Assembly: GCF_000744815.1 (NCBI RefSeq)
Contig: NZ_JQMQ01000005.1
Coordinates: 2,922,055-2,986,054, forward strand
Reading direction: 5' to 3'
Source of the DNA: Phaeacidiphilus oryzae TH49
Lineage (GTDB): Bacteria > Actinomycetota > Actinomycetes > Streptomycetales > Streptomycetaceae
Length of the DNA stretch: 64,000 nt
Of this stretch, positions 16,842-20,513 are shown in pieces. The position numbers and the translations under genes were made by a program. The first letter of the stretch is position 1, and each line of letters starts with the position of its first letter. The notes under the pieces were generated by a model. That model searched no databases. It was not told the DNA's origin and was given only the letters and a program-made list of their open reading frames with translations.

Positions 16842-18056
16842 ATGCAGGTGATCCAGTCGTCCAAACTCGCCAACGTCTGTTACGACATCCGCGGTCCGGT
16901 GCTGGACGAGGCGATGCGGCTCGAGGCGGCGGGCCACCAGATCCTCAAGCTGAACACCGGTAACCCGGCGCCGTTCGGCTTCGAGGCACCGCCCGAGGTC
17001 CTTCAGGACATCATGCGCAACCTCGCCTCGGCCCACGGCTACGGGGACTCCAAGGGGCTCCTCTCGGCCCGCCGCGCGGTGGTGATGCACTACGAGGAGC
17101 GCGGACTGCAGGGCCTGGACGTGGACGACGTCTACCTCGGCAACGGCGTCTCCGAGCTGATCCAGATGGCCATGCAGGCGCTGCTGGACGACGGCGACGA
17201 GGTGCTCGTCCCCGCGCCGGACTACCCGCTGTGGACCGCCTCGGTGTCGCTGGCCGGCGGCACCGCCGTGCACTACCGCTGCGACGAGCAGGCCGACTGG
17301 TACCCGGACCTGGCCGACATCGAGGCGAAGGTCACCGACCGCACCCGCGGCATCGTGGTGATCAACCCGAACAACCCGACCGGAGCGGTCTACCCGGAGG
17401 AGGTGCTGCGCGGGATCGTCGAGATCGCCCGCCGGCACGACCTGATCGTCTACTCCGACGAGATCTACGACAAGATCCTCTACGACGACGCGGTGCACGT
17501 CCCGACCGCCTCGCTCGCCCCCGACCTCCTCTGCGTCACCTTCAACGGCCTCTCCAAGGCCTACCGGGTGGCCGGCTTCCGCTCCGGCTGGATGACCCTC
17601 TCCGGCCGGAAGGACCACGCGTCCAGCTATATCGAAGGCCTGACGATCCTGGCCAACATGCGGCTCTGCGCCAACATGCCGGCCCAGCACGCGGTGGCGG
17701 CGGCGCTCGGCGGGCGGCAGTCGATCCGGGACCTGATCCTGCCGGGCGGCCGGCTGCGCGATCAGCGGGACACCACCTGGAAGCTGCTCAACGAGATCCC
17801 CGGGATCTCCTGCGTGAAGCCGAAGGGCGCGCTGTACGCGTTCCCGCGGATCGATCCGGCCGTCTACAAGATCAAGGACGACCAGCAGTTCGTCTTCGAC
17901 CTGCTGCGCGCCGAGCGGATCCTGGTGGTGCAGGGCACCGGCTTCAACTGGCCGGAACCGGACCACTTCCGGATCGTCACCCTGCCGCGCGCGGAGGAGC
18001 TGGCGGACGCGGTCACCCGGATCGGCTCCTTCCTCCAGGGCTACACGCAGCCGTAG
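16842..18056 (+). CDS. PLP-dependent aminotransferase, alanine-transaminase (AlaA) type
   Basis: 404 residues, class I/II fold. Lysine in FNGLSKAYRVAGFRSGWM carries PLP; NPNNPTGAVYP, the SDEIYDKILYDD cofactor contact and the C-terminal FRIVTLPR arginine are clear. The close match to the AlaA group suggests glutamate-pyruvate aminotransferase activity. There is no ribosome site before the ATG at 16842, but a TAAAGT -10-like element ends 8 bases upstream, so the transcript may be leaderless. Confidence 0.9.
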   Translation: MQVIQSSKLANVCYDIRGPVLDEAMRLEAAGHQILKLNTGNPAPFGFEAPPEVLQDIMRNLASAHGYGDSKGLLSARRAVVMHYEERGLQGLDVDDVYLGNGVSELIQMAMQALLDDGDEVLVPAPDYPLWTASVSLAGGTAVHYRCDEQADWYPDLADIEAKVTDRTRGIVVINPNNPTGAVYPEEVLRGIVEIARRHDLIVYSDEIYDKILYDDAVHVPTASLAPDLLCVTFNGLSKAYRVAGFRSGWMTLSGRKDHASSYIEGLTILANMRLCANMPAQHAVAAALGGRQSIRDLILPGGRLRDQRDTTWKLLNEIPGISCVKPKGALYAFPRIDPAVYKIKDDQQFVFDLLRAERILVVQGTGFNWPEPDHFRIVTLPRAEELADAVTRIGSFLQGYTQP

Positions 18057-18131
18057 CGGCGGGCGCGGCCGGATCAACGGGCGCGGCCGGATCAGCGGGC
18101 GCAACGGGAGCAGCAGGCGCGAATCGCTTTA

Positions 18132-18152
18132 ACTTTAGACGTCGTCTAAAGT
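18132..18152. promoter_or_regulatory. Perfect 21-base palindromic operator upstream of the 18190 gene
   Basis: ACTTTAGACG (18132-18141) and CGTCTAAAGT (18143-18152) are exact reverse complements around a single central base. It lies 38 bases before the start of the small gene at 18190 and includes a TAAAGT (18147-18152) usable as a -10. It does not match an operator I can name. Confidence 0.75.
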
Positions 18153-18189
18153 AGGCTGGGCCGCACCGGATGACCCAAGGAGGTCAGCC

Positions 18190-18594
18190 ATGTACGAGCC
18201 CATCCGCCACAAGTCCGTGCACAGCAGCACCCACGTCGTCGGTCCTGCGACCGTCGCCGTCGCCGAGCCGGGCCCGGACTCCCTCGGCCGGCAGCTGGCC
18301 GGCCACCTCAGCGCGCTGCTGTCCGCGACGCGCCGCCTCCAGGAGATCACCGGTGACCCCGAACTGACGGCTGCGATAGGGCGGTTGGAGTCGCGCCTGG
18401 CCGAGCTGGGGCCGGCCGGCCCGCCGGCCAGGGACAGCCGTCCCGCCGGTGGGGGTGCCTCGGCGCTGCACGGCCACGCCCACGACCTGGCCGCACGCGT
18501 CCTGGTCGTGGCCGCGGCCCGCCAGGACACCACCACCGCGAAGCTGGCCTGCGACCGCATGGACGCCCACGCGCGCGGCGCGCAGCGCGCGTGA
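18190..18594 (+). CDS. Small conserved protein of unknown function
   Basis: 134 residues, no recognised domain. The N-terminus is histidine-rich (HKSVHSSTH, His at 7, 11 and 15), the middle is an amphipathic helix (about 33-72), then comes a proline-rich linker and a second helical segment ending near a lone Cys. Soluble, no signal peptide. The ATG follows AAGGAGG, an unusually good ribosome site. It is preceded by the perfect palindrome at 18132-18152 and is convergent with pckG. Expression is therefore likely to be tightly controlled by a dimeric repressor. Confidence 0.7.
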   Translation: MYEPIRHKSVHSSTHVVGPATVAVAEPGPDSLGRQLAGHLSALLSATRRLQEITGDPELTAAIGRLESRLAELGPAGPPARDSRPAGGGASALHGHAHDLAARVLVVAAARQDTTTAKLACDRMDAHARGAQRA

Positions 18595-18668
18595 TCGCGC
18601 CCCACTCGGCAACGGAACCGGGGCGACCCGGTGACCGCTGCCGAGTGCGGCGCAGCGCGTAGTCCGCG

Positions 18669-20513
18669 TCAGCCCAGGCGCTCGACCAGGCGGTTGTACT
18701 CGTCCCACAGCTCGGCCGGGGTGTGCGCGCCGAACCTCTCCAGGTGCTCGGGGATGAGGGACGCCTCTTCCTTCCACACCTCGCGGTCCACGCTCAGCAG
18801 GAGTTCGAGGTCCGCGCGGGACAGCCCAAGCCCCTTGAGGTCCAGCGAGTCCTCCGCCGGGAGGATCCCGATCGGCGTCTTCTCACCCTGGGCGATGCCC
18901 TCGAGCCGCTCGACGATCCACTTCAGCACCCGGCTGTTCTCGCCGAAACCCGGCCAGACGAACTCGCCGTCGGCGTTCTTCCGGAACCAGTTGACGTAGT
19001 AGATCTTCGGCAGCTTGTCCGGGTCCGCCGACGCGCCCAGCCGCAGCCAGTGGGCGAAGTAGTCGCCCATGTTGTAGCCGCAGAACGGCAGCATCGCGAA
19101 CGGGTCCCGGCGCAGCTCGCCGACCTTGCCCTCGGCCGCGGCCGTCTTCTCGCTGGCCACGTTGGCGCCCAGGAAGACCCCGTGCTGCCAGTCGAAGGAC
19201 TCGGTGACCAGCGGCACCGCCGAGGCCCGCCGGCCGCCGAAGAGGATCGCCGAGATCGGCACACCCGCCGGGTCCTCCCACTCGGGGGCGATGGTCGGGC
19301 ACTGGGCGGCCGGCACGGTGAAGCGCGCGTTCGGGTGGGCGGCCGGGGTCTCGGACTCCGGGGTCCACTCGTTGCCGCGCCAGTCGGTGAGCCGGGCCGG
19401 CTTCTCGTCGGTCATGCCCTCCCACCAGACGTCGCCGTCCTCGGTCAGCGCGACGTTGGTGAAGACGGCGTTGCCCCAGAGGGTCTCGATCGCGTTGGCG
19501 TTGGTGTCCCGGCCGGTGCCGGGCGCCACGCCGAAGAAGCCGGCCTCCGGGTTGATGGCGTAGAGCCGGCCGTCCTCGCCGAAGCGCATCCAGGCGATGT
19601 CGTCGCCGATCGTCTCGACCTTCCAGCCGGGGACGGTCGGCTGCAGCATGGCCAGGTTGGTCTTGCCGCAGGCGGACGGGAAGGCGGCGGCCACGTAGCG
19701 GGGCTCGGACCCCCCTGGCGGGGTCAGCTTGAGCACCAGCATGTGCTCGGCCAGCCAGCCCTCGTCGCGGGCCATGGTCGAGGCGATCCGCAGGGCGTAG
19801 CACTTCTTGCCGAGCAGGGCGTTGCCGCCGTAGCCGGAGCCGTAGGACCAGATCTCCCGGGACTCCGGGAAGTGCGAGATCCACTTGGTGGGGTTGCACG
19901 GCCACGGCACGTCGGCCTGGCCGGGCTCCAGCGGGGCGCCGACGCTGTGCACCGCCTTGACGAACTCCCCGTCCTCGCCGAGGTGGTCGAGGACCGCCCG
20001 GCCCATCCGGGTCATGGTGCGCATCGAGACCGCGACGTACGCGGAGTCGGTGATCTCGACGCCGCAGGCGGCCAGCGGGGAGCCGACGGGGCCCATGCTG
20101 AACGGGACGACGTACATCGTCCGGCCGCGCATGGAGCCCTGGAAGATCTCGCGGAAGATGCCGCGCATCTCCTCCGGGTGCTTCCAGTTGTTGGTCGGCC
20201 CGGCGTCCTCCTCGCGCTCCGAGCAGATGAAGGTCCGGTCCTCGACGCGGGCCACATCCGTCGGATCCGAGGCGGCGTAGTAGGAGTTGACGCGTTTCTC
20301 GGGGTTGAGCCTCTTGAAGGTGCCCTGCTGGACCAGCAGTTCGCACAGGCGCTGGTACTCGGCCTCCGAGCCGTCGCACCACTCGATCCGGTCGGGCTGG
20401 GTGAGCTCCGCGATCTCGTTCACCCAGGCCACCAGACGCGGGTGCGTCGTGGGAGGCGTAGCAAGCTCGGCCGTGGCGGGCACGGCGGCATGGGCAGAGT
20501 TCTCGTTCGGCAC
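18669..20513 (-). CDS. pckG: Phosphoenolpyruvate carboxykinase (GTP)
   Basis: 614 residues, the usual length of the GTP-dependent enzyme, which converts oxaloacetate to PEP for gluconeogenesis. The P-loop [15 protein letters not shown], the [13 protein letters not shown] metal and guanine region, the catalytic-loop arginine in [12 protein letters not shown], and the [15 protein letters not shown] signature are all present. The ATG at 20513 is preceded by a 10-6-10 perfect inverted repeat (20531-20556) in the presumed leader. Monocistronic. Confidence 0.97.

Follow-up and report, generated by a model that had tools for sequence, protein, structure and literature searches.

Upstream of a small gene in Phaeacidiphilus oryzae TH49 lies a perfect palindrome, and the question raised by this locus is which regulator binds there, and what the 134-residue product of the gene does. 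The features concerned are listed in Table 1, with positions in the window, i.e. the whole stretch of 64,000 nucleotides that was analysed. The reading I arrive at is that the palindrome is an operator of CatR (or of its paralog FurA), that the gene behind it is induced by H2O2, and that its product, a member of the SCO4983 family, is a ferritin-like and probably metal-binding protein; taken as a whole, I consider this probable, the metal-binding part less so than the rest.

Table 1. Features of the SCO4983 locus, by position in the window
Feature	Position	Strand	Basis
134-aa member of the SCO4983 family; four-helix bundle of ferritin-like type (predicted)	18190..18594	+	NF052236, model, conservation
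Perfect palindrome ACTTTAGACGTCGTCTAAAGT, predicted CatR/FurA (PerR-like) operator	18132..18152	.	Window sequence, ortholog conservation, pattern scan
-35-like hexamer TTAACT	18129..18134	+	17 bases before TAGGCT; inferred promoter
-10 hexamer TAGGCT	18152..18157	+	First base is the last base of the palindrome
Ribosome binding site AAGGAGGT	18177..18184	+	Sequence; strong; before ATG 18190

The palindrome consists of two exact arms of 10 bases around a 1-base centre, as had been reported in an earlier reading from the sequence alone (the sequence-only reading), and it is the sole perfect palindrome of this build in the window. The further palindromes of the window, whose arms are separated by 0 or by 2-9 bases (20 entries, many of them nested), are all GC-rich; the window itself has a GC content of 73%. 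By first-order Markov simulation, 0.29 one-base-centre palindromes are expected per window by chance, and not one with at least 13 A/T bases occurred in 100 simulations. No second copy with 3 mismatches or fewer was found, either in the window or in the 7.8 Mb of the organism's own genome (six contigs), and a definition of the regulon by the near-exact palindrome, which at up to 3 mismatches returns this one place in the genome, was rejected. The sequence-only reading had proposed a genome scan for further copies and had regarded their absence as a refutation; degenerate sites were found at the CatR, FurA-katG and rubrerythrin-VIT1 genes, and because the motif is degenerate, the absence of other copies is a poor criterion. 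Taken alone, the palindrome in its own genome is modest evidence; its conservation across relatives is convincing.

Within the palindrome, a Fur-type 7-1-7 inverted repeat is present, TTAGACG-T-CGTCTAA, which takes the form TTAGAAT-G-ATTCCAA in one of the orthologs (L012). Such 7-1-7 symmetry is typical of Fur-family boxes, the PerR box included. The palindrome extends across the spacer between the two hexamers of an inferred promoter, TTAACT-N17-TAGGCT, and the earlier observations that it overlaps the -10, and that a strong ribosome site and an open reading frame of 134 residues follow, both hold. TTAACT is a weak -35, because at the same place TCAACT is found in 48 of 80 orthologs. An Rfam search of positions 17900-18800 gave no match. 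By eye, the upstream neighbour is an aminotransferase-like gene and the downstream one a PEP carboxykinase-like gene that points towards the SCO4983 gene, and because of this arrangement the latter looks monocistronic.

The protein belongs to NCBIfam family NF052236, the SCO4983 family (1.8e-28; its score of 99.5 bits exceeds the cut-off, 55), and the alignment is near full length, with residues 1-129 on positions 1-131 of the 133 in the profile. The model name carries no function, no Pfam match was found for the 134-aa protein, and a search of open-licence papers found none on SCO4983; the earlier description as an unknown protein is still apt with respect to function, but the protein belongs to a named family. 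When 150 genomes from the taxonomic family of the window were sampled with a single-sequence query, 77 had a match at E <= 0.001, the weakest of these matches being doubtful, and in a class-wide sample 27 of 296 genomes match at E <= 1e-6, all 27 from that same family. Named genera with orthologs include Streptomyces, Streptacidiphilus and Wenjunlia.

In all 30 of the ortholog loci examined first, TTRGA-N5-TCYAA is found upstream of the SCO4983 gene. A scoring matrix built from 27 of these 30 sites (three identical copies were left out) detects a site at most 250 bases upstream in 80/80 named orthologs, the best 80 of 392, and none at the same threshold elsewhere in the 401,765 bases of these named loci; the 80 loci were selected by gene, and at least 9 of them apparently coincide with training loci of the matrix, so that the count of 80/80 is not independent. 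At the place of the -10, the 80 orthologs have TAGGAT (66), TAGGCT (5), TAAGAT (5), TATGCT (2) or another hexamer (2). In two SCO4983 promoters (L311, L315) the operator is present twice, the copies overlapping at a spacing of 16 bases. In five other orthologs (L005, L007, L008, L011 and L013), only 11 bases separate the operator from the ATG, which is therefore close behind the -10 hexamer; this suggests leaderless mRNAs.

For the reverse test, the pattern CTTTAGANNNNNTCYAA, chosen after the sites of the 30 first loci and of the 80 named loci were known, was searched for in the whole genomes of 81 members of a sister genus (g9, Streptomyces by inference). It occurs at 72 places in 69 of the 81 genomes, as opposed to 9 places for the reversed control pattern. 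Seventy of the 72 places were examined (G176 and G182 were left out), and 67 of these lie 31-46 bases before the SCO4983 gene, the remaining ones being located before a VIT1 gene (L240) or elsewhere (L243, L300). Among the 12 genomes without CTTTAGANNNNNTCYAA, seven carry the SCO4983 gene at E <= 1e-6, and in all seven a variant site of at least 25.2 bits lies just upstream of it; five are also without the gene at this threshold, one of these genomes being only 82% complete. The scan and the variant sites therefore indicate that the SCO4983 gene and the operator travel together. A stricter pattern, requiring a C directly before TTRGAC, yielded sites in 5 of the 81 genomes and was replaced by CTTTAGANNNNNTCYAA.

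The AlphaFold2 models of the window protein (mean pLDDT 85.9) and of its ortholog from Streptomyces justiciae (87.0) both have an N-terminus of low prediction quality, followed by four helices. In Foldseek, all 50 rows listed for each of the two models are ferritin-superfamily proteins, with best E-values that are weak (0.036 and 0.017, respectively). In a second structure comparison, Rv2844 (2ib0) was matched with Z 13.6 (108 residues at 2.9 A) and, by the ortholog model, 2qqy with Z 13.8 (103 residues at 1.9 A), values to be read with the tool's own warning that helical bundles reach Z of about 13 easily; non-ferritin bundles, e.g. cobalamin adenosyltransferase (Z 11.8), are also among the matches listed. 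A profile search of solved structures with the SCO4983 protein returned chance-level rows only. Judging from the models, the protein is likely a ferritin-like four-helix bundle.

Two of the family alignments covered 28 of the 30 first loci (A1) and 47 of the 80 named orthologs together with the window and 8 earlier loci (A2). Three histidines of the helical domain, H39, H94 and H127, are identical in 81/81 aligned family members, and D113, at a helix start, is also among the invariant helix residues; H98 is kept in 74 and lost in 7. No invariant Glu was found in the helices of the 81 aligned members, and the carboxylate/His ligand set of a ferroxidase is, by conservation only, lacking. The sequence-only reading had pointed to three spaced histidines near the N-terminus, which are indeed present (H7, H11 and H15), but as a cluster they are not conserved, with H11 kept in 74 of the 81, H7 in 2 and H15 in 1. 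Judging from where they stand in the helices, the invariant histidines could all point into one core, and my guess is that the protein may bind iron or another metal via H39, H94 and H127. An attempt to place the histidines on a ferroxidase site was dropped, as the start of the bacterioferritin alignment shifts several residues between the two models.

It is quite conceivable that the protein does not bind metal at all, and that its bundle serves a structural role or binds other proteins, the protein being simply peroxide-induced, as middling fold matches come easily to helical bundles and neither a canonical diiron ligand set nor a fully conserved H98 is present; however, every listed Foldseek row is ferritin-like, and three histidines are invariant throughout the aligned family. 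A metal-binding, ferritin-like protein is the reading I prefer. It has a parallel in Bacillus subtilis, where PerR controls the Dps-type mini-ferritin MrgA; the likeness lies in PerR-type control of a ferritin-fold protein, which is predicted here for SCO4983, and MrgA (2chp) is among the SCO4983 fold matches listed. The two proteins differ in that no sequence match between them was reported, and in that the ferroxidase Glu is not conserved in SCO4983, which has invariant histidines instead.

The operator, which had not been recognised from the sequence alone, can now be assigned as a probable CatR/FurA (PerR-like) box on the basis of the catR, katA and katG loci. A degenerate scan of the own genome revealed related sites upstream of a Fur-family (CatR) gene and of a rubrerythrin-VIT1 gene, and with the matrix derived from SCO4983 sites only, the own-genome sites score 18.6 bits at CatR, 16.0 at FurA-katG and 24.6 at rubrerythrin-VIT1. 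Compared with its reversed control, the one-mismatch motif is not enriched in the own genome (11 vs. 43 matches) or over 16 relatives (92 vs. 310), and the regulon is therefore invisible to a raw genome scan. The own-genome scan with one mismatch gave six distinct places: three are meaningful (SCO4983, CatR and rubrerythrin-VIT1), two look like chance (L033 and L037, with 7.2 and 8.7 bits, respectively), and the sixth, L036, scores 18.7 bits.

A second site is present at about 159-314 kb from the SCO4983 site in 13 of the 16 relatives, and none was found near the expected distance by the one-mismatch scan in G029, G036 and G138. I examined 20 one-mismatch regions of the relatives, chosen by their distance from the SCO4983 site or by their recurrence. 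In 12 of 13 loci the second site is adjoined by a CatR gene, which shares about 75-81% identity with CatR of the own genome, and in 8 of these 12 katA is located beside it as well. Six other sites each lie between a CatR/FurA-like gene and katG; the surroundings of a seventh (L089) are unrelated genes, with neither a CatR/FurA-like gene nor katG. The motif is thus one that the SCO4983 promoter shares with the catR-katA and furA-katG loci. In contrast to the katA genes of the 8 relatives, which adjoin an operator, the own-genome katA (G000:C5:5821905-5823050, L090) has none in the examined locus. In the remaining locus, L070 (G102:C1:3382800-3384800), the operator (17.4 bits) is as far from SCO4983 as in the others but adjoins neither catR nor katA, and it may be left over from a loss of genes. 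Three genomes share the same one-mismatch site, TAGGACACGGTCTAAG, towards a chromosome end (G102:C1:9566204, G138:C1:23600 and G112:C1:33798).

Four Fur-family matches are present in the own genome, two of which, CatR and a katG-linked FurA, match CatR at E <= 1e-20, and at this threshold a CatR/FurA homolog was found in 150/150 genomes sampled from the family. Residues H37, D85, H92, H94 and D105 of the own-genome CatR align with the PerR sensing positions, and FurA has kept the same five (H32, D80, H87, H89 and D100); in PerR, peroxide sensing depends on these positions. Among solved structures, CatR matches 2fe3 best ('Peroxide operon regulator', 3.3e-15). CatR/PerR is described in PMC5288332 as an iron-based peroxide sensor, with all five sensing residues conserved in S. 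coelicolor CatR. Two further papers describe SCO5206 as the S. coelicolor Fur homolog regulating a monofunctional catalase (PMC2464607), and katA1 and catR as divergent genes (PMC3219662). As far as the available text of a 2015 study goes (PMC4530454), katA1 is the only known CatR target in Streptomyces, a wider response is suspected, and ferritin-gene transcription is without major change in an S. natalensis catR mutant; no mention of an SCO4983-family gene was found in that text. The present case thus resembles the catR-katA control of catalase in Streptomyces in having the motif near catR/katA and a sensor with the PerR positions, and differs from it in that the SCO4983 gene is an unlinked locus, katA1 being the only target described there.

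Which of the two paralogs is in charge can be weighed as well. That the operator belongs in the own genome to the katG-linked FurA instead of CatR, i.e. to a different sensor with the same peroxide-sensing mechanism, I regard as rather unlikely. Both paralogs exist in this genome, each with a related site upstream, and in G036, in which the SCO4983 site is kept (L004), the only CatR/FurA homolog at E <= 1e-20 adjoins katG, so that in G036 the task would fall to a FurA-type protein. However, the SCO4983-derived scores are higher at the CatR loci (16.1-31.1, n = 12) than at the katG loci (14.1-17.2, n = 6), and the site is also kept in G011, G024 and G112, where the sole homolog at this threshold is katA-linked. 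It is very improbable that a non-Fur repressor (of the TetR, MarR, MerR or ArsR type) binds and that the likeness to the sites at catR, katA and katG arose by chance, from AT-rich palindromes lying over promoters, as, even though MerR-type operators likewise sit between -35 and -10, no regulator gene directly adjoins the SCO4983 gene in the window (by eye), and the same degenerate motif recurs at the CatR, katA, katG and rubrerythrin-VIT1 loci.

Because the palindrome is most likely a CatR/FurA operator, H2O2 should induce the SCO4983 gene. By analogy with PerR, a repressor dimer of this type (CatR or FurA), loaded with Fe2+, would cover the -35/-10 spacer of the promoter; H2O2 would oxidise the iron-ligand histidines of the repressor, which would then leave the DNA, and the SCO4983 gene would be expressed together with the catalases. 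Its product would then probably bind or buffer metal and so limit Fenton chemistry in peroxide stress, which is the more speculative step. The earlier suggestion of a repressed and redox-responsive gene gains support by inference from the match of the operator with the catR, katA and katG sites, CatR/PerR being a peroxide sensor.

The motif also extends to genes for putative iron transport. In the own genome, the site of 24.6 bits overlaps the start of the rubrerythrin-VIT1 (MbfA-like) gene (G000:C4:432267-433466; L039, L205), and each of the 8 rubrerythrin-VIT1 loci examined, all of them full-length, has a site of 16.3-34.2 bits; the match in G074, likewise full-length but more distant (42%), is not one of these 8. 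Relative to the matched stretch, the sites overlap or touch it in 2 loci, precede it by 36-219 bases in 3, and by 452-593 bases in the other 3. Sites were found at 2 of 22 VIT1-only loci (L231 and L234, genus g9); they score 27.0 and 33.5 bits and precede the matched stretch by 117 and 88 bases, respectively. On the evidence of these sites, the rubrerythrin-VIT1 and VIT1 genes are candidates for further regulon members. The own-genome gene has the same two Pfam domains as MbfA, the rubrerythrin-VIT1 iron exporter. MbfA exporters are under the control of Irr in alpha-proteobacteria, according to the review PMC7762939, whereas this actinobacterial gene is found near a CatR/FurA-type site and its role in export is putative.

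Judged by its operator, the SCO4983 gene is probably a widely conserved further member of the peroxide response. More tentatively, SCO4983 may represent an undescribed class of peroxide-induced, metal-binding proteins with a ferritin fold, specific to the Streptomyces family, in which a histidine site replaces the diiron-carboxylate one, and CatR/FurA may govern an iron-safety regulon that reaches beyond catalase to rubrerythrin-VIT1 and VIT1; this is possible, though I would not yet count on it. With a conserved further target and candidate iron transporters at hand, a wider CatR regulon becomes directly testable, and for the uncharacterised SCO4983 family there is now a well-defined condition to study, exposure to H2O2, together with the hypothesis that it handles metal.
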